From Diatrype stigma (lineage: Eukaryota > Ascomycota > Sordariomycetes > Xylariales > Diatrypaceae), in contig JAKJXP020000029.1 in NCBI GenBank assembly GCA_022225965.2, positions 186,001 through 250,000 on the forward strand: 64,000 bases of DNA, written 5' to 3'. The notes under the pieces are model-generated. The model did no database searches. It was not told the DNA's origin and was given only the letters and a program-made list of their open reading frames with translations. Position numbers and translations under genes: made by a program. Position 1 is the stretch's first letter; every line of letters starts with the position of its first letter. Positions 3,581 to 15,257 of the stretch are shown here, in pieces.

Positions 3581-4906
3581 TCATGCCCGATCAGTACTCG
3601 CCCCGGCTTTATAGGTTGTAGTTCTATTCCGTCCTTCAGTGAAATCATGACCTGGTATGCTGGCGTTCTTGTCCTGGAGCTCAATATAATGATGAGTAGT
3701 TACGCGTATGGGCTCAGGTCTCCTGATCAAATCGTTCGCTAGGCTTTGGCGGGACGTTTTCAAGCTACTTTGAGAAGTCGAGTTAATGAATCGTCTAACT
3801 AGAGGAGATTTCTTGAGGTGATGAGTCCAAAATAGTTGAAGAGCCGGCGCACAACTAACAATGATCGCAATGCAGCACTCAGCGACCCTATGCGTGTATT
3901 AGACAATAGCTGGTAGTATAAATGCATATCGCTACTTACGTGGCAAGCATTGCATTGGTCACATTAGCTGAGGTGGCATGATTTTGCGCCCATTGGTAGT
4001 ATAGAGACACAGCGCCAGCGACAAGAGCCCTGGCAGGATTTGACAAGTTAGCTTGTTACTGTCAACTCTCAATACTAGAATAGGGGTATATGCTGAACCT
4101 ACAGGGAACCTGCCATGAATACGCAAGCCAACCCGATTCTTTTGTGCAGTGGCAAATGCAGCTTTACAATGATAGGTAGTGGCAAGCATAAGATCGTCAC
4201 ATCGGCGATGAGCGATATGATATTTCGTATGACGGTCGAGTAGAGGGTGGAGCCAACGCAAGCAAGTAGATATGAATCACTAAGTGTTTTGCCTCTTGGG
4301 CTACACTTCACCCCGGTATATATCGCACATCCTAGGAAGGTCAATGCTGCAACGACGAGGATGAAGTAGCATATAAAACGTATCCAACGCTGGGTGCCGA
4401 ACAGTCGAAGGTATAAGAATAAGATGGGAAGTTTCGCAAAATACATTGCAGTAGTCGCGGTGAAGATGCATGCTGCTGCCAACTAGTTAATTAGATACAT
4501 GTTAGCATGTAGACTGTCTATGAGATAGGGCATATGCCGTTACTCTTGTGATGAATGCCACGGATATTTCCACTCCTGCTGGATGATTGTATGCTATTTC
4601 CTTTAGCATGTATCCCATAGAATCAATTGTAATTGTATTACTTACTTCTATTCATCATAGAAGACGTTGCTGAGTAGCTTATGACCCATATTACTGCCAC
4701 CATACATAAATCTAAGCAGACCATTAGTCTTGAGATCGGGTAATGGTTGGGCCTTACTTACAATCGTCGGCAAAGAGTTTTCGTACATAATTCCAGTTGG
4801 TTACAAGTCGGATACCTATGAAGCCTATTGTGACAATGTTAAGGGTCACTTGAGAGGCGATGTAGCCAGGGAGAGGTATGTTGGTCGGTTGGACAACGTG
4901 ATCCAT
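3581..4906 (-). CDS. Rhodopsin-domain (Pth11-like) seven-helix membrane protein
   Basis: Six exons on the minus strand: 4906-4762, 4711-4646, 4593-4544, 4482-4103, 4029-3940, 3887-3581. The spliced frame is 1,038 nt (345 residues plus stop). Introns start GTAAGT, GTAAGT, GTAACG, GTAGGT and GTAAGT, and two carry GCTAAC branch sites. The order matches the fungal rhodopsin (DUF3468-type) domain: helix 1 near residues 17-37, an FADD motif after it, CIFTATTAMYFAKLPILFLYLRLFG in exon 4, C..R.K at the second loop, helix TILCLPLPIIVKLHLP, then the exon-6 helix VAECCIAIIVSCAPAL. A ~75-residue hydrophilic cytoplasmic tail follows. Such proteins are orphan surface-sensing or GPCR-like receptors; the ligand is unknown. 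It is transcribed away from the tryptophanase-prenyltransferase gene across a 1.4-kb gap. The largest exon alone looks like a truncated ORF, so a single-ORF reading would miss most of the gene. Confidence 0.85.
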
Positions 4907-6331: not shown

Positions 6332-9253
6332 ATGGCTCCCTTACCCTCAATGGACATCCCCTATCCTCCATCTCATAATGCTGTGGTCGTGAGGAGTCTC
6401 ACAGAAGTGGGGTCCGAGGAACGTGAGAGTATCCTTAAAGATGTCGAGTACAACCTATTCGCTTTCCCCTCCGGACTTCTCACCTGCGACTTTCTTTCTG
6501 ACTCTGGCACTACGGCAATGACAGATGTACAATGGGCTGCATGTAAGGAACTACCAATATTAAAATTTTCCACCCAATCATGTATACATATGCTAGGTCC
6601 GCTCTATGACCCGGTACCCCTTTTATGTCGCAGCTATGTATTGGTATTATTGAAAATGACACAGGTACTGACGTAGTATCCTTAGTGATGAGAGGCGATG
6701 AGAGCTATGGTCGTAATTGGGGGTACTATTGTCTTCAAGACGCTTTCCGGAACATATTCGAGTCTGGCGTTACCTCACAAGACCGTGTTGTTCGGGACAT
6801 CGTTACAGGAACTGCGGATAGCAACCTATATAGTACCAAGCTTCTCGCACCATACGAAGGGGCCTTCGTGAATGGTGGGCCTCACCAACTGAAACGTCCG
6901 AACTTTTTCATCGTTCCTCAGGGACGGTGTGCTGAAGCTTTACTCTTCTCCACCCTGAACGAAATGATCCGCGATGAATCACAGACAGACAGAGCACGTA
7001 AACCAGTCATTGTCAGCAATGGATTCTTCGACACGACCGGCGCCAATGCTAGCGTGGCTGGGTTCGGGCTCCAAACATTCACCCAGCCGGGATTGACAGA
7101 CCCTTTCCCACAAGACCTCATTGGGGTGAAGAACTTCTTCAAAGGAAATCTTGATATAGCCGCTACTGAAGCATATTTGGCCCAAAACCCGGGGAGAGTC
7201 GCTATGATACTAATCACGATCACGAATAACTGGGCTGCTGCACAGCCTGTATCTATGGCCAACATACGCAACGCCGCCTCCTTGGCAAAGCGTGCAGGGA
7301 TCCCCCTTTTCTTTGATGCTTGCCGATTCGCAGAAAACGCTTTCTTCATACACCAGTACGAGGAGGAGTATTCGTGTATGACCATTTCTCAGGTTGTGCA
7401 AGAGATGTTTTCCTACGTTGACGGATTTACCATCAGCTTGAAGAAAGACGGTCTCGCAAATATGGGTGGTGTCCTGTGCTTTCGTGATAGGGGGTTGTTT
7501 GCTAGAAGATATGATGGAATCGGTCATCGACTAAAGGAGAGGCAAATCTTGTGCTACGGCAACGACTCCTATGGCGGCAGTAAGTGAACTCCGGCCTTCA
7601 TGCTTCCTACAATGCTTTTACTCGGATGCGTGGGTGCTAACCTCGATATTTTTAGTGAGCGGTCGTGATCTGATGGCTGCGGCCGCTGGTCTTTATGAGG
7701 TGACCAAAATGAGTTATCTCCGCAACCGTATCGGTCAGGTACAATCGTTCGCGCAGCAACTCGAGGCCAGCGGCATCGCAGTACTTTCACCACCAGGAGG
7801 TCACGCGCTTTTCCTCGATATGGATGAGTTCTTCTTTGGTTGTGATCGGAAGCCATGCGATTTTCCCGCCGTCGGCTTCACGCTTGAACTTCTCAAGGAT
7901 TATGGGATCCGGGCAGCAGAGGCGGGCCCCTTCGGTTGGGAATGGGACAACAAATCGGAAGCAGAACGGAAAGGAATACCTAACTTGGTTCGGTTCGCGG
8001 TGCCGCGTAATGCTCTTTCTCACGAGCACATTTCATACACCGTTGCGGCCATCAAAGAACTACACAGTCGCCGACACACCATCCCAAATGTTGAGATCAC
8101 AAGGGGAAAACATATGCGACTCAGACATTTCCAGTGTGGATTGAAACCATCCCCTGTAGACCAGTCGATCACTGGAACCTACAGCGGTGAAGCGAGCCGA
8201 CAGCTGTCACATCTTGCCAAAGCTATCGGGCAGGAAAAGTTGACTGAACAGTTGCTGAGTGCAGTGGCGTTGTCGACTGGTAGTTGGGGGAAGAAACGCA
8301 TCCCACGAACAGTTGACCTATCGGGATGGGTCTCTGCTGTAAGCAACGACCATTCACCGTTTGAGTATTCTGTAGTCATAGACCAAGGGAGCGGAGAAGC
8401 AGAGTTGCGGTTCCTTGTTGAAGCACAACCTGAAGAAAACAGCCCGAAACATCTGGAAATGAACGCCTTGCACCTAGCTGAGAACATTGCAACCAACTAC
8501 AGCTCAACCTCGCTTGGCTCCTTCAACGCAATCCGGGGTATCTTCCTGCCTTTGCATACGGACAGCAACTTTGTGGCATGGTTTAGCTTCGCGGCATCAA
8601 CCTCCACACCTGAATGGAAGATATATCTGAACCCATGTGTTTCGGGGAAGGAGAATGCAAGCAAATCTGTCTGCGCAGCATTAAGGCGTCTAGGTTTGTC
8701 CAAGGCCTGGGCACTGATAGAAAGTACGATGGCATCGAGTGACTCCATTGCCTACTTCTCCCTTGACCTATCTCGAGACGAAGAGGCTCGCGTCAAAGTC
8801 TACGTCGCGCATCCTGGGGCAAAGGCTTCTCAAATTGCTCTGAAGCATACGAAGATATGCCCGGATGCGAGCTCGTATGAGATTGAGCGGTTTTGCCTCT
8901 CCATGGCTGGTGGCTCCCCTGGTCCATACGACGCAAAGCCACTACTTTCGTGCTTCGCATTCACAAACAAAGCAGCAGATAGACCTGTTGGCACCGTGCA
9001 TTTCCCTGTCGTGGCATACGCAGAGAATGACGCGGAGATACAAGGTCGCATCGAAGAGTATATGCGTCCAACATGCGTATCGCCTACTGCTCGAAGAAGA
9101 TATCGAAGGATCATTGATGCCGTGCAGCGCAGGCACTTGGGGCGGGGATGTGGAATCCATGCCTGGGTGAGTCTTAAGCAGAAAGCCGGCGGGCGGAGGT
9201 CGAACACATTTTACATATCTCCAGAGTTATTCGGGCCTGTAAAGGAATCTTGA
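6332..9253 (+). CDS. Bifunctional tryptophanase / DMATS-type indole prenyltransferase fusion
   Basis: Three exons: 6332-6542, 6677-7579, 7656-9253 (2,712 nt, 903 residues). Residues ~1-531 are a full-length PLP-dependent beta-eliminating lyase. Visible motifs are LSDSGTTAMTD..W, GDESYG, DACRFAEN (Asp284/Arg287), the PLP-lysine motif SLKKDG (second Lys = 327), YGGMSGRD across intron 2, NLVRFAVPR and LRHF. The His of LRHF (529) is the residue I recall as tryptophanase-like, where tyrosine phenol-lyase has Phe. Residues ~540-903 are an ABBA/DMATS prenyltransferase: SPFEYS (Glu608, matching the indole-NH-binding Glu), ELRFLVEAQ, KIYLNP (693-698), DLS..EEARVKVYV (742-755) and PVGTVHFPVVAYAENDAE. 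This half is ~365 residues, the size of bacterial enzymes and shorter than typical fungal DMATS (~430-460). Inferred chemistry: prenylation of Trp or indole, and C-C cleavage to indole plus pyruvate and ammonia, giving a prenyl-indole. A same-strand P450 follows. Which ring position and prenyl length are used cannot be read from the sequence. Confidence 0.9.
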
Positions 9254-10167
9254 TAATGTTTGCGCCGGGCTGGATGCAGATATGGGGTTGGAATGTATTG
9301 GTTTCGGAGGTGATCAATAGTGCTTTTGTATAGAGATGCTGAACATCTTAAGATCTAGAGTACAAGAGCAGCTTATTGGCTCACTAGAACAATACATTCT
9401 TTCACCCCTGACATCCCGTTTTAACTCCTTTATGTATGCCACATGGATTTTCAGTTACATTATCAATGAGTCTGGGGGCACGACTTGTGGATCTCAAAGA
9501 GGGTGCCAGGGGGGGGGGCGGTGTTTGGGGTGCACCCGCAGTGGTTGTAAAGGCTAAGACTATTATATATTTCCACACCTGAGTGCGTAAGTATATTTAG
9601 CAGGCAACGTTCGACCTCATATGGACCATGCATGTTAAAGCTGTAGTTGGCCCCAATTCATGTCATTACCGACCCTTGGATCAGCAACGCTGTTAGTACT
9701 TAGCATTGCATATGCCTAGCCCGCATATACCTAGCCCGCATATACTTGCTTACTGCATGCTTGATCACACCACAGAATGAAGGAACGCAAGCTATATGGA
9801 AGCCTTGCCTAGAATACGAGACTTGGCTTACTTGCCATAATCCGGCCGTCGTAGGATAATATGTGGAATGGTACGTCAGGATATGCGAGAACAAGAGTGA
9901 ATCCTCAACTGACAGTAGCATTTCATATTACTTATATATATTATACCTTCCATAGCCCATCATCTTCGACCCTAATTAACGTGCAGTTGTTCATTCTGCT
10001 ATAGCCTTGGATATCGGAGGGTATAATAATATGTCCTAGTACTCCAGCCCCTTAGCCCTGGCTTTTACCATTCCCCACCGGTTGACCTGGTTTAAGTGGC
10101 AGTTCATCATTGTGTTACATCTATACATCACCAAGTATTACCTTTCCAGCTCAATTACATCGCTGTC
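9254..10167. other. Intergenic region upstream of the P450
   Basis: Holds the 3' flank of the fusion gene, a G-run near 9510-9520, a short 15-bp tandem repeat (listed separately) and the P450 promoter. No gene seen. Confidence 0.5.
9708..9752 (+). repeat. 15-bp tandem repeat in the P450 upstream region
   Basis: Two good copies of GCATAT(G/A)CCTAGCCC (9708-9722, 9723-9737) and a third that starts the same (GCATATAC) and then diverges. It lies ~420-460 bases before the P450 start. It could be a binding-site array or a chance minisatellite. Confidence 0.6.
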
Positions 10168-11844
10168 ATGTCTAGAGCGATATCCCCTATTATCCTGGTA
10201 GCTGTCGCGTTTCTCTCCCTCTATGTCTTCAAGCGGTTCTCGACAAAAGCGTCTTTGCCTCTTCCACCTGGTCCTCCCACTCTGCCTATAATCGGTAATG
10301 CTCACCAAGCACCCAAGTCCCGTGCTTGGCTACAGTACCAGGCCTGGGCAAAGTCGTATGGACCTATTGTCCATCTCAACATGCTTGGACAACATGTGAT
10401 CATCCTATCTACCTCGGAAGCAGCCCATGGAGTCCTTGCTAAGCAAGGGGCGACATTTTCTGATCGTCCGCGTTTCGTCGTAAGCACGTCTCTAGTGGCC
10501 CTACAAGGGGATGTTTCTTTGGGCTAACCCATGAACCTGAAGGTAGCATTTGAGCTAGCCCTCCAAGGCATGCACATGCTACTGCGACCGTACGATGAAC
10601 GATTCAGGCTGCACCAAAGACTGGAAACCCCGGTGTTGAACCCCCGAGCGGCCAGTGCCTACCTTCCCTTCCAGACACTCGAATCAAGCCAGTTGCTGTT
10701 TGACCTTCTGAGCGATTCGAACGACACTGGGATAGACTGCCACCCGCACCTAGAGCGCACCACAGCCAGTGTGATATATGCCCTCTTCTATGGCTATCGC
10801 CTCAAAACAGCCTTCGATCCCGTGCTCCTTGCCGCTCATGCTGTCAACCACGAGTTTGGGCAGTTCGCCCAGGTGGGGGCCTACGTTGTCGACTTCTTCC
10901 CTATCCTGAACAAGCTCCCGAAATTTCTCGCCCCGTGGAAGAAAGAAGCCGCACGGCACTGGGAACGGCAGCGGTCCTTGCACGTCGGGAACCTCAAGCG
11001 CGGTCTCGGATCCTCGAGCTGGAACTTCTGTAAGGCGATGCAAAGAGCACTCGAGGCGGAGGCCATCGACATGTCGGTAGAAGAGTTAGCGCTGGACCTT
11101 GGGATCATGGCCGATGCTGCCATGGATGCCAGCACGGAGACTCTGGCCTGGTTCGTAGTAGCCTGCGTTGCGGAGAACGACGGATTTATTGCCAAGGCCC
11201 AGCGGTATCTGGACGAAGTCGTTGGACGAGGCCGATTGCCCGTGTTTGATGATCGGCCGAGATTGCCATATATCGACGCCATCGTCGAGGAACTCCTCCG
11301 ATGGCGTCCTGCGGGTGCTGCAGGTGTGCCTCATGCTACGAAGGTAGAAGGCAGCTACGGCGGATATAGGATCCCCGCTGGCTCTGTGGTCATAGCTAAT
11401 CACTGGGCGATCACTCGGGAAGAAGCGGTCTTCGGGCCTGATGTGGAAGCGTTCTTGCCCGAGAGGTGGCTATCTGTGCGAACCTCGGGCGACAAGGGGG
11501 ATGCTGCTACCGAGGTACTGAAAGACCTTCCAACAGTTGGCTTCGGGTACGGGAGGCGGATCTGTCCTGGGAGACACGTTGCACGCAACAGCTTGTGGAT
11601 AGCGGTGGCCAAACTCCTGTGGGCGTTTGACTTCGAGCCCCCTTTGTCGGAGACAGGGCAACGATTCGCCGTGGATTCCATGGCGCTTACTGATGGTCTT
11701 GTCGTGAAGCCGTTGCCTTCCAGGGCCATTCTTAAGCCCCGTGGCGAATGGGTGCGCCGAATCGTTACGGAGCAGTGTGACACTCAAGGCATGGATTTTA
11801 CTGGTATACTTGATCAGATCGGATCGACTCTGGCTACGAATTGA
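10168..11844 (+). CDS. Cytochrome P450 monooxygenase
   Basis: Two exons, 10168-10479 and 10543-11844, joined over a 63-nt in-frame intron (GTAAGC..GCTAAC..AAG) that holds a TAA. Without splicing the gene looks split into two frames. The product is 537 residues. It has an N-terminal membrane anchor (residues ~5-20), a proline hinge LPLPPGPPTLPIIGN, FSDRPRFV at the splice point, an I-helix ADAAMDASTETL (~293-305), the ExxR motif EELLR (~353-357), FLPERW and the haem loop FGYGRRICPG with Cys445. The overall pattern resembles the O-methylsterigmatocystin-oxidoreductase-like group of fungal microsomal P450s. It lies 914 bases downstream of the tryptophanase-prenyltransferase gene on the same strand. 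The simplest reading is that it oxidises the prenyl-indole product, but no substrate can be read from the sequence. I chose the ATG at 10168 because it directly precedes the anchor helix. Confidence 0.88.
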
Positions 11845-12680
11845 ATGCAATACTTACGGTCGATTCACGGTACAATGAATGAGCATTCAGGTTGCTAGGA
11901 AAACACAGGTAGCATAGGTTACGCATGCATGCTATCTAAAGAAGCTTCTCGTTTCGTGACTGGTAGATTCAGGGGTGTATGATATGTGATTTGGCGCAGT
12001 CATATAGAAGTTCAGCCTGTTCAGAAGCCTATATTAAGCAAAGACCAGGCGCCCCTTATTATAGGGGGTGACGGGGTGACGGGTCTTGGCGTGAAGTAGG
12101 TGGGGTTCCACTAGTTCGAGGTCCCGGGACCTGAAATAGTGGATCGAAGTGCCCCCGGATCTCGATCTGACGGAGCTGGCACTGGGCAGCTGGTAGTTAT
12201 TGTTCCCCCCACCTCTATTCCATACCTATTCCATAGGTACCTATAGCAAGTGAACCACTTTCAAGTTAACAACCTCAAAGCTGGGGACCGAGATGGTGTT
12301 GTATACACCACGGGGCTTAAAGACCATCAGCTTGACAACCTTATCGTGATATATTATCTCAGCAAGCATTTCTACTCCCTTATACCGAATCATTGATGAC
12401 GCACGTCTATGTAGTTGTGACTAGGACGTGGCGTCGCCAATGCATGCTGTCATGACCTGCTGAGCAGGTCATGGTCGTTATCCTCCCATGACTTCGGGAT
12501 CACGAGTATACGGACTTGGGATATAGCGATCAAACACTGCCGTGCGCGCTCATCCTCGCCACCCCTGACAGGTTAACGGCCCACTATAATTAGGTCCTTT
12601 GCTAGACACCTTGATATCGTTCCAGGCAGTTCATAGTTACAATAAAGGTTGTCACAGTAAAGGTTGTTACAGCAAAGGTT
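11845..12680. other. Intergenic region
   Basis: Between the P450 and the GH31 gene. Contains small GC-rich imperfect palindromes (for example around 12115-12135, GGTCCCGGGACC) but no gene. The end carries a 15-bp repeat running into the GH31 start. Confidence 0.5.
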
Positions 12681-12683
12681 ATG
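12639..12683 (+). repeat. Three 15-bp repeats ending at the GH31 start codon
   Basis: Units ACA(A/G)(T/C)AAAGGTT.T. at 12639, 12654 and 12669; the third overlaps the ATG at 12681. The array makes up the immediate leader of the glycosidase mRNA. Confidence 0.7.
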
Positions 12684-15257
12684 ACCATCATGGAGAAATA
12701 CAAATTCCCGTCTGAGCCTGAAGCAGACCCCAGGGCGACAGTGGTCGGGCCCAACTACCGCTTCACGATACTTTCAGACATCGTGCTCCGGTACGAATGG
12801 TCTCATGATGGAGTCTTCGAGGACCGTGCCTCAACCTTCGCCATCAACAGGAAGTTCTCCCCGCCGCAGTTCAAAACGACGCAGACAGAGGATAGGCTTG
12901 CCATCAACACCCCCTCGTTCCGTCTGACGTACGACAAGCAGCGCTTCAGCCCCAACGGCCTGCATGTCGACTTCGTCCAGAAGGGCGTTGTGTGGGGCAG
13001 CGACTGGCGATACGGAGGTCCGCCGGACAAGAAGAACCTGGGCGGGACGGCCCGGACGCTCGACGAGGCCGACGGGCGCATCGATATGGGGACCGGCATC
13101 CTGTCCAGGTCGGGGTACGCCAACCTCGACGACAGCGAATCCATGCTCTTCGACGGGCAGGGCTTCGTCGCGCCCCGCCGCCCCGGGGACCGCATCGACG
13201 GCTACCTTTTCTTCTACGGCCAGGACTACAAGACGGCCATGAAGGCGTACTATGCCATCTCGGGCCAGCAGCCGCGGCTGCCGCGCTGGGCGTTCGGCAA
13301 CTGGTGGAGCCGGTACCACGCCTACAGCGCCGACGAGTACCTCGCGCTGATGGACAAGTTCGCGGCGCAGTCGGTGCCCCTGTCGGTCGCCGTGCTCGAC
13401 ATGGACTGGCACCTGGTCAAGGACCCGCGGGTCCAGACCAGCGGCTGGACCGGCTACACGTGGAACCGGGCGCTGTTCCCGGACCCTGACGCCTTCGGCC
13501 GGGCCCTGCGCGCCCGCAAGCTGAAGGTGACGCTGAACGACCACCCGAGCGCGGGCGTGTACAGCCACGAGGACCAGTACGAGGCCATGGCTGCCTTCCT
13601 CGGACGCGACACCAGCGACAAGGCGCCCATTATCTTCGACCCTACGTCGCCGCGGTTCATGTACGCCTACCTGAACATCCTGCACCGGTCGCTCGAGCCC
13701 AACTGCGACTTCTGGTGGATCGACTGGCAGCAGGGGTCGTACTCGGCCGTGCCGGGCATCGACCCGCTGTGGCTATTGAACCACTTCCAGTACCTCGATA
13801 GCAAGTACCAGAGCCAGCAAAAGCAGCAGAAGAAGACGGCGCAGAACTCCGGCACGGGCTCGGGGGCCGGCAGCGCCAGCAGCAGCAGCAGCAGCAACGA
13901 CGCGCTGATCTTCTCGCGGTACGCGGGGCCCGGCAGCCACCGGTACCCGGTGGGGTTCTCTGGCGACACGGTGGTGACGTGGGCGTCGCTCGCGTTCCAG
14001 CCGGAGTTCACGGCGACGGCGTCGAACGTCGGGTACGGGTGGTGGAGCCACGACATCGGCGGCCACATGCAGGGGTACCGGGACGACGAGCTGACGGCGC
14101 GCTGGGCGCAGCTGGGCGCCTTCTCGCCCGTGCTGCGCCTGCACTCGTCCGACAGCCCCTGGACGTCCAAGGAGCCGTGGCGGTACCGGCCCGAGTGCGC
14201 CGCCGCCATCGCGGGCGCCCTGCGCCTCCGCCACCGCCTCGTGCCCTACCTGTACGCCATGGATGCGGGCACGAACACTGGCGGCGAGCCGCTCGTCCAG
14301 CCCCTGTACTGGGCGCACCCGGGGCTCGACGCCGCGTACGCGAAGCCCAACGAGTACTACTTCGGCACGTCGCTGGTCGTGGCGCCCGTGACGAGGCCCC
14401 GGGACGGGCGGACGAACCACGCCGCGGTCGCCGTCTGGGTGCCGCTCTCGGCGGCGCGGCACGTCGACATTTTTACCGGGCTCGTGTACGACGGCGATAG
14501 GGAGGTCACCATGTACCGGCCGCTGCAGCGTGTGCCGGTGCTCGCGCCCGAGGGGGCCATCATTCCGCTGGATGCGAACCTAACGCCGGGCTTCAACGGC
14601 TGCGCGAATCCCGAGGGCTTCGAAGTGCTGGTTGTCGTGGGTCGGGACGGCGAGTTCTACCTGAGCGAGAGCGCCTCGGACGACGCCGACGACGATGTTG
14701 GCGAAACTGCCGCGGATGGCGCCGTAACGGAGAACGAAGAGAAGGGCGATCGAATCTTCAAGATCACCTACGACCAGGCGGCCGGCAGGGTGCGTACCAA
14801 CACTCACGGCAAAGCGTTCAAGTTCAAGTTCGTCTCGCTCACGGCCCCGCCCTCACCATCATCATCACCGGTTTCCGTCACCGTCAACGGCGTCGAGATC
14901 GACGGGGCGAAGGTCACCGTCGAGACGTACTCCCTGTCCGAAGACAGCAACAACAACATCCCCGGCCTGGTCGTCGAGCTTCCCGAGGATTACGCCGGGG
15001 ATGGAGAGGACGCGATCGTCGAGGTGACGATCGGGCCGGACCCGCAGCTGGGCATCGCGGACCGGGTGGCGCGCATCGGCGACCTGCTGTACGACTTCCA
15101 GGTGGAGTACGAGGTCAAGGACAGGGTGCAGGAGATCATCAGTAGCCAGTCCCAACCGATCGTCACGCAGGTCAGCCGGCTTGCCACCCTGGGGCTCCCG
15201 AAGCCGGTGGTCGGGCCGATCCTGGAGTTGTTGACCAGCGATAGCCGGCAGTCTTGA
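12681..15257 (+). CDS. Glycoside hydrolase family 31 (alpha-glucosidase/alpha-xylosidase-like)
   Basis: Intronless, 858 residues, high GC. It has no signal peptide, so it is probably cytosolic. An N-terminal beta-sandwich leads to the (beta/alpha)8 barrel, which starts near LPRWAFGNWWSRY. Barrel motifs are VAVLDMDWHLV (~240), GWTGYTWNRALFPDP, FWWIDWQQG with Asp348 as the likely nucleophile (family motif WIDMNE), FSGDTVVTWASLAFQPEFTATASN, and WWSHDIGGH with Asp458 as a candidate acid/base. The C-terminal ~250 residues form the beta domains usual in the family. A low-complexity Gln/Lys/Gly/Ser insertion lies at about residues 375-405, between the nucleophile strand and ALIFSRYAGPG. The substrate is likely an alpha-linked glucoside or xyloside; specificity is not resolvable here. 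A second in-frame ATG lies three codons downstream (12690). There is no clear link to the prenyl-indole genes upstream. Confidence 0.88.
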   Translation: MTIMEKYKFPSEPEADPRATVVGPNYRFTILSDIVLRYEWSHDGVFEDRASTFAINRKFSPPQFKTTQTEDRLAINTPSFRLTYDKQRFSPNGLHVDFVQKGVVWGSDWRYGGPPDKKNLGGTARTLDEADGRIDMGTGILSRSGYANLDDSESMLFDGQGFVAPRRPGDRIDGYLFFYGQDYKTAMKAYYAISGQQPRLPRWAFGNWWSRYHAYSADEYLALMDKFAAQSVPLSVAVLDMDWHLVKDPRVQTSGWTGYTWNRALFPDPDAFGRALRARKLKVTLNDHPSAGVYSHEDQYEAMAAFLGRDTSDKAPIIFDPTSPRFMYAYLNILHRSLEPNCDFWWIDWQQGSYSAVPGIDPLWLLNHFQYLDSKYQSQQKQQKKTAQNSGTGSGAGSASSSSSSNDALIFSRYAGPGSHRYPVGFSGDTVVTWASLAFQPEFTATASNVGYGWWSHDIGGHMQGYRDDELTARWAQLGAFSPVLRLHSSDSPWTSKEPWRYRPECAAAIAGALRLRHRLVPYLYAMDAGTNTGGEPLVQPLYWAHPGLDAAYAKPNEYYFGTSLVVAPVTRPRDGRTNHAAVAVWVPLSAARHVDIFTGLVYDGDREVTMYRPLQRVPVLAPEGAIIPLDANLTPGFNGCANPEGFEVLVVVGRDGEFYLSESASDDADDDVGETAADGAVTENEEKGDRIFKITYDQAAGRVRTNTHGKAFKFKFVSLTAPPSPSSSPVSVTVNGVEIDGAKVTVETYSLSEDSNNNIPGLVVELPEDYAGDGEDAIVEVTIGPDPQLGIADRVARIGDLLYDFQVEYEVKDRVQEIISSQSQPIVTQVSRLATLGLPKPVVGPILELLTSDSRQS

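Follow-up and report, generated by a model that had tools for sequence, protein, structure and literature searches.

A fungal fusion of a tryptophanase-like and a prenyltransferase-like half as a candidate prenyl-indole synthase

Actinomycetes are described, in the available part of PMC3617294, as converting tryptophan to prenyl-tryptophan and then to prenyl-indole with the products of separate genes, a pathway proposed in the elimination direction in which the prenyltransferase (PT) IptA acts on tryptophan. According to the same part, Type A iptA clusters include a tryptophanase gene, that of Streptomyces sp. SN-593 makes 6-dimethylallylindole-3-carbaldehyde, and a cytochrome P450 is present in some of the clusters. 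The first-pass annotation of the DNA studied here had pointed to this Streptomyces pairing, and the published Type A clusters bear the comparison out. We analysed a 64,000-nucleotide stretch (positions 186,001 to 250,000) of contig JAKJXP020000029.1 of the wood-dwelling fungus Diatrype stigma, a member of Xylariales and Diatrypaceae (hereafter, the window), in which a three-exon gene on the forward strand at 6332-9253 yields one open frame of 900 amino acids (aa) with a complete tryptophanase (lyase) half and a complete PT half. We consider it probable that the product is one bifunctional enzyme, whose PT half prenylates L-tryptophan and whose lyase half then yields prenyl-indole. Production of prenyl-indole by the fungus is a fair inference.

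The gene is laid out as follows, with pyridoxal phosphate abbreviated as PLP and nucleotides as nt:
6332..6542, forward strand: exon 1, with the start codon, lyase-half residues 1-70 and base 1 of codon 71 (splice model; positions filled in most homologues)
6543..6685, forward strand: intron 1, 143 nt, GTAAGG..CCTTAG, acceptor set by homologue spacing
6686..7579, forward strand: exon 2, the predicted tryptophanase core, with the indole-binding D186 at 7030-7032 and the PLP lysine K324 at 7444-7446
7580..7655, forward strand: intron 2, 76 nt, GTAAGT..TTTTAG, directly behind which 34 of 35 other open reading frames (ORFs) tested start aligning
7656..8140, forward strand: exon 3, first part, the C-terminal third of the predicted lyase, ending at residue 530 and with H526-F527 in it
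8141..8164, forward strand: join between the halves, about residues 531-538, short and weakly conserved; the PT match of our own structural model starts at residue 539
8165..9253, forward strand: exon 3, second part, the bacterial-type DMATS/ABBA PT half, about residues 539-900 plus the stop, with E605 at 8363-8365

Both introns are GT-AG, and exon 3 as a whole spans 7656-9253. An acceptor of intron 1 lying 9 nt upstream (6676) would add three residues, WAALSLVMRGDE. Among the in-frame acceptors we chose 6685 because it gives the spacing of the six homologues inspected, all of which have WAALMRGD or WAAMLRGD in their N-termini. The spliced frame had been reported as 903 codons with the PLP lysine at 327; the single frame stands, but the count fits acceptor 6676, and with acceptor 6685 the protein has 900 aa and the lysine is K324. 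The public model of the gene (P0001, Diatrype stigma) matches ours at 99.9% over 765 residues, beginning at M72 and diverging from the 900-aa model after residue 836. Position 58, in the region absent from P0001, holds a residue in 60 of the 74 aligned rows. A whole-protein search of the species' own 49 Mb genome returned this locus only, as three exon matches.

The fusion is real and not an artefact. The single open frame of exon 3 contains the last third of the lyase and the entire PT, with no stop or intron at the join, so that the joining of the halves is independent of any splice. Homologues were taken as the best 120 of 1243 matches to the whole protein; in this set at least 72 proteins other than P0001, the window's own gene, namely P0002-P0073 and mostly of fungal origin, cover no less than 78% of the aligned positions in each half. 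Among the 73 proteins P0001-P0073, coverage reaches 95% or more in each half for 50. We also selected 35 further ORFs close to exon 3 in size, of which 33 were environmental and 2 came from named fungi. The alignment of 34 of them begins at residue 369 or 375, immediately past intron 2, and reaches at least residue 894; that of the remaining one begins at 533. Named carriers among the matches listed include Biscogniauxia, Hypoxylon, Xylaria, Rosellinia, Microdochium, Podospora, Triangularia, Diaporthe, Stachybotrys, Colletotrichum, Metarhizium, Lentithecium, Corynespora and the basidiomycete Mycena pura; other matches are environmental, and one comes from a liverwort. The range of fungal carriers takes in Xylariales, Sordariales, Colletotrichum, Metarhizium, two Dothideomycetes and one Mycena. 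Single-half proteins are recorded in other fungi and might suggest two separate genes or transcripts that merely resemble a fusion, but several of them are cut gene models, and the uninterrupted exon 3 together with the same join in the other 72 or more proteins and in 34 of the 35 further ORFs leaves this explanation almost no probability. At this locus a frameshift or two-gene reading is rejected on the evidence of an exon 3 that runs through the join and of the recurrence of the join in those ORFs. Overall, the single polypeptide proposed in the first-pass annotation is supported by sequence, conservation and predicted structure.

The liverwort is Riccia sorocarpa, which has a full fusion of 965 aa (P0038), with 61% identity, on a contig of 31.9 Mb, and also a relative that consists of the lyase alone (P0078), on a 52 Mb contig. 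Both proteins group together among fungal sequences in the tree. This placement suggests a fungus-to-plant transfer, unless it reflects contamination.

By family score and residues, the N-terminal half is a predicted tryptophanase, which would convert tryptophan to indole, pyruvate and ammonia. Pfam PF01212 (Beta_elim_lyase) matches residues 53-497 above the gathering score (E 6.6e-52), and the NCBIfam tryptophanase model NF009709 gives 470 bits against a cut-off of 285, placing the protein in that family. The scores fall below the cut-offs of the narrower equivalogs TIGR02617 and NF053783, and the window lyase is therefore not filed under either. The binding and catalytic residues assigned to the Proteus vulgaris tryptophan indole-lyase in the available part of PMC11301627 (Lys-266, Asp-223, Asn-194, Arg-414, Tyr-72, Arg-101, Phe-132, Asp-133, His-458 and Phe-459) have as counterparts, in the same order, K324, D281, N252, R481, Y78, R151, F185, D186, H526 and F527, and Thr-50 is replaced by Ser. 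The PLP lysine and cofactor residues K324, D281, N252 and R481 are each found in 74 of 74 aligned rows, and the other listed residues, H526 excepted, are constant or changed in one row where a letter is present. H526 is replaced in 7 of the 74 rows, by V in five Colletotrichum and one environmental sequence and by L in one environmental sequence. These rows (P0061, P0062, P0063, P0069, P0070, P0066 and P0073) retain the other catalytic residues, hinting at an altered leaving group.

A different pairing, of a tyrosine phenol-lyase with a tyrosine PT, would give prenyl-phenols. Diatrypaceae are known for prenyl-phenols of the eutypine type, and tyrosine phenol-lyases, which have the same fold, also score in these searches. 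However, Asp186 and His526, the indole-holding pair of the P. vulgaris enzyme, are both present, the tyrosine phenol-lyase model TIGR02618 scores lowest of four lyase models (261 bits, cut-off 721), and tryptophan enzymes are the nearest solved PTs. The phenol-binding Arg of tyrosine phenol-lyases presumably has no counterpart in GIRAAEAGP, and we hold this pairing to be highly unlikely.

The C-terminal half is matched by Pfam PF11991 (Trp_DMAT) at 591-840 (E 1.7e-14), with a score of 54 against a gathering score of 25, and the structural model predicts an ABBA barrel of ten strands. The nearest solved structures are bacterial L-tryptophan prenyltransferases, several of them crystallised with L-tryptophan. 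For TleC, the available part of PMC4786772 names an indole-holding Glu and a diphosphate shell of Arg, Lys and Tyr. Residues of this type in the window PT, matched by motif position and not by superposed coordinates, are E605 (in the SPFEYS motif), R620, K690, R747, Y751, Y823 and Y888. The identity first given to both halves is thus upheld, as the domain search finds PF01212 and PF11991 above gathering score and the catalytic residues and predicted structure agree. Four Xylaria and Astrocystis paralogues (P0031, P0036, P0039 and P0058) have lost PT active-site residues and retained those of the lyase; in these paralogues the PT half seems to be decaying.

In the scheme that we favour, the PT half would take a dimethylallyl group from dimethylallyl diphosphate and attach it to L-tryptophan on the benzenoid ring. 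The probable site is C-5 or C-6, by analogy with several of the nearest solved relatives, the position not being readable from sequence. The N-terminal PLP half would then remove the side chain by beta-elimination, giving a prenylated indole, pyruvate and ammonia, and the prenyl-indole may undergo further oxidation, perhaps by an adjoining cytochrome P450. Substrate, order, ring position, product and P450 role are inferred here from sequence and models: the nearest solved enzymes point to prenylation of tryptophan, the intact set of D186, H526 and Y78 (the indole-binding pair Asp-133/His-458 and Tyr-72 of the P. vulgaris enzyme) to cleavage of prenyl-tryptophan, and IptA to prenylation before cleavage. 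The reverse order, with the lyase half freeing indole from tryptophan and the PT half prenylating it, would result in the same products; the lyase retains the residues used on plain tryptophan, and freed indole could move to the adjoining domain. Nevertheless, tryptophan is what the nearest solved PTs prenylate and several were crystallised with, and what IptA uses in the Streptomyces pathway (PMC3617294, available part), which makes this order unlikely. The lyase half could also act as a synthase, given that tryptophanases are reversible (also stated in the available part of PMC8537960), joining (prenyl-)indole with pyruvate and ammonia (or serine) into prenyl-tryptophans as alkaloid building blocks. 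We judge this very improbable, as the PT can prenylate tryptophan directly, leaving no clear need for such a step, and the actinomycete pathway is proposed in the opposite direction.

Several observations weigh against one bifunctional enzyme that carries out both steps. The window protein reaches 111 bits with the NCBIfam DMATS model TIGR03429, below its cut-off of 164, and the PT half is therefore not filed under that subfamily; four bacterial PTs scored as a control fall short of it too (110, 116, 125 and 116 bits). Together with two standalone fungal PTs and two further fusions, this makes nine proteins scored, all of them under the cut-off at 68 to 125 bits. E605 is lost in 3 of the 74 rows, all from Xylaria, and R747 and K749 are changed in 13 and 10, respectively; the window copy keeps all three. 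Given these changes, some paralogues have probably lost PT function or have it in altered form, and with PT residues or H526 lost in some relatives, not every family member need perform both steps. Standalone PTs in Penicillium, Aspergillus and Daldinia indicate that the halves can separate. A lyase gene lies beside the PT gene in just 5 of 24 bacterial PT loci, one of the five being a biased find, and beyond the P450 the neighbourhood of the fusion forms no obvious gene cluster.

A broader proposal, which we hold tentatively, is that the protein is a one-chain prenyl-indole synthase, in which the PT barrel passes its prenyl-tryptophan to the PLP site of the same particle. Such an enzyme would recreate the bacterial neighbouring-gene scheme convergently, through fusion, and would have been kept across fungi and passed to a liverwort. 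If this were true, it would point to prenyl-indoles as fungal signals or defence compounds that have been overlooked as a class.

Scanning GTDB genomes with the PT alignment gave 16 loci, comprising 14 myxobacterial records, one Deltaproteobacteria metagenome-assembled genome (MAG) and one Nostoc MAG. A tryptophanase gene adjoins the PT gene in three of these (Polyangiaceae L005, Nostoc L006 and Hyalangium L016), and two further pairs are L044 from a Myxococcota genome and L027, the biased find, which came up among loci retrieved for their lyases. The PT is present in 7 of 282 Myxococcota genomes. Lyase precedes PT in L006 and L044, the same order as in the fusion; none of the five bacterial pairs has both in one frame, the genes lying on opposite strands or in separate frames. 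These pairs were rejected as the source of both fungal halves, since their lyases are short (a motif-to-motif stretch of 31 residues versus 75, described below) and the three of them included in the lyase tree group with other short forms.

A gene for a cytokinin-dehydrogenase-like flavoenzyme adjoins the PT gene in 11 of 23 distinct bacterial PT loci by tblastn (L005, L007, L008, L009, L014, L015, L017, L037, L038, L040 and L044), where L037-L043 include about 1.5 kb of flank and Pfam FAD_binding_4 and Cytokin-bind were checked in L005 and L044 only. The latter two loci hold a recurrent three-gene set of flavoenzyme, tryptophanase and PT. Near the lyase-PT pair, Hyalangium L016 encodes a styrene-monooxygenase-like protein (Smoa_sbd, 12642-14159) and Nostoc L006 an FMN-dependent dehydrogenase and a weak FAD oxidoreductase match (8553-10655), flavoenzymes fitting further oxidation of prenyl-indole.

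Sequence comparison indicates that the PT half is of the bacterial and not the classical fungal type. Against the window PT, the 14 bacterial rows listed, out of 29 and mostly myxobacterial, score 121 to 188 bits, and three actinobacterial PTs, entered as partial rows, score 92 to 115, compared with 94 to 117 in the PDB search. Of the two classical DMATS in the fungus's own genome, one scores 1.7 bits and the other gives no match. The best-scoring non-fungal PTs are environmental or, if named, myxobacterial (Polyangiaceae, Minicystis). In a PT tree of 65 rows, where the long rows (classical DMATS, CymD) are uncertain in placement, the PTs of the fusions and the standalone fungal PTs make up a single group (100/99), and a 98/97 branch places this group with the bacterial-type sequences, apart from the two classical DMATS. 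The Trp_DMAT model, searched against the same genome, finds the two classical DMATS elsewhere (304 and 283 bits), the fusion (54 bits) and one weak match below cut-off. An origin of the PT half from a classical fungal DMATS is rejected in view of bit scores, tree and nearest solved structures. The standalone PTs branch among the fusions at two separate points, one for Penicillium/Aspergillus and one for Daldinia, a pattern that would fit two losses of the lyase half.

The lyase half has other affinities. Nine Clostridia long forms score 442 to 464 bits against it and the five PT-adjacent bacterial lyases 204 to 229; the best of the four top Myxococcota lyases (L032) reaches 354 bits. The stretch from GDExY to QGRxAE measures 75 residues in the window lyase, 77 in the nine Clostridia forms, 74 or 75 in 58 of the 62 database fusions in which both motifs were located (the other 11 of 73 yielding no value), 31 in all five pair lyases as well as five other bacterial ones, and 40 in L032. 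In a lyase tree of 50 rows, which includes three of the five pair lyases, a 100/100 branch separates the fungal and Clostridia rows, which lie together, from the pair lyases and short forms; its 15 lyase-only fungal rows include cut fusion models (P0090 and P0091 carry PT sequence, P0083 is a stub). Bacterial lyases were sampled from the best 120 of 7978 matches to a Clostridia query, from the 282 Myxococcota genomes and from PDB, with the lyases of actinomycete Type A clusters outside this comparison. The Myxococcota scan gave a lyase match in 108 of the 282 genomes, at best 305 bits (L032), and a donor closer than those sampled may exist.

Lyase bit scores, stretch spacing and the lyase tree, set against the PT affinities, indicate that the halves have different nearest bacterial relatives among those sampled, and they most likely come from two different bacterial lineages. 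The bacterial type of both halves and their different relatives did not figure in the first-pass annotation. The halves were probably joined once, in a single fusion origin, after which one half was lost in some fungal lineages. What actinomycetes run with separate genes, fungi thus seem to have condensed into a single chain, assembled from two bacterial genes of separate ancestry.

Two further features adjoin the fusion gene:
10168..11844, forward strand: cytochrome P450 gene (PF00067, E 3e-45 on 10528-11841; with a start codon and candidate introns)
4099-4482, reverse strand: partial fungal membrane protein with a rhodopsin domain (PF20684, E 1e-21), lying upstream of the fusion gene

The P450 gene lies on the strand of the fusion, 914 nt downstream, and is a candidate tailoring oxidase by position only.

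Parts of this family have surfaced in print. A 2021 study of tryptophanase diversity (PMC8537960), in its available part, counts 16 fungi with horizontally acquired tnaA, Colletotrichum, Fusarium, Podospora and Metarhizium among them, and places Firmicutes within the cluster holding fungi, in agreement with our lyase tree. Its authors infer two transfers into fungi and, for Fusarium, Penicillium, Aspergillus and Trichoderma as a further group, a source resembling Bacteroidales. Three genera of that list, Colletotrichum, Podospora and Metarhizium, carry the fused form here, and the words 'fusion', 'prenyl', 'dimethylallyl' and 'domain' are absent from the main text of the study. The available part of PMC7173932 names tryptophan indole-lyase in Metarhizium, without more, and that of PMC9876896 does not mention the fusion. 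Mining for fungal indole PTs tends to start from classical DMATS genes; for example, a survey of Hypoxylaceae secondary metabolism (PMC8403587, available part) took a Trichophyton DMATS as template, and 'tryptophanase' and 'lyase' are absent from its text. With such a starting point, the fusion family may have been passed over. We found no description of the fusion in the open-licence literature, searched mostly through top-ranked titles and abstract openings, with subscription papers and preprints outside the search. Its original designation as undescribed holds in that no text found recognises the fusion, but not in full, as both Pfam domains are already present in many database entries, which go by names like tryptophanase or beta-eliminating lyase, and fungal tnaA is in print. 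The fusion puts forward an enzyme and a product that can both be tested, as well as a one-protein route from tryptophan to prenyl-indoles, and it bears on the entry of indole-producing enzymes into eukaryotes.

Among known systems, the Clostridia long-form tryptophanases (8sl7, Butyricicoccus) are not fused to a PT, unlike the window lyase, and the bacterial DMATS-type L-tryptophan PTs (PriB, S. coelicolor 5-DMATS 6zrz, IptA, 6zrx and CymD) are standalone, unlike the window PT. Classical fungal DMATS (FgaPT2, DMATS1 and the two in the fungus's own genome) have their fold in common with the window PT. The actinomycete Type A iptA/tryptophanase clusters share with the fusion both predicted activities on tryptophan, a PT of the same structural type and the encoding of PT and tryptophanase together, but as separate bacterial genes, whereas here they form one fungal polypeptide.
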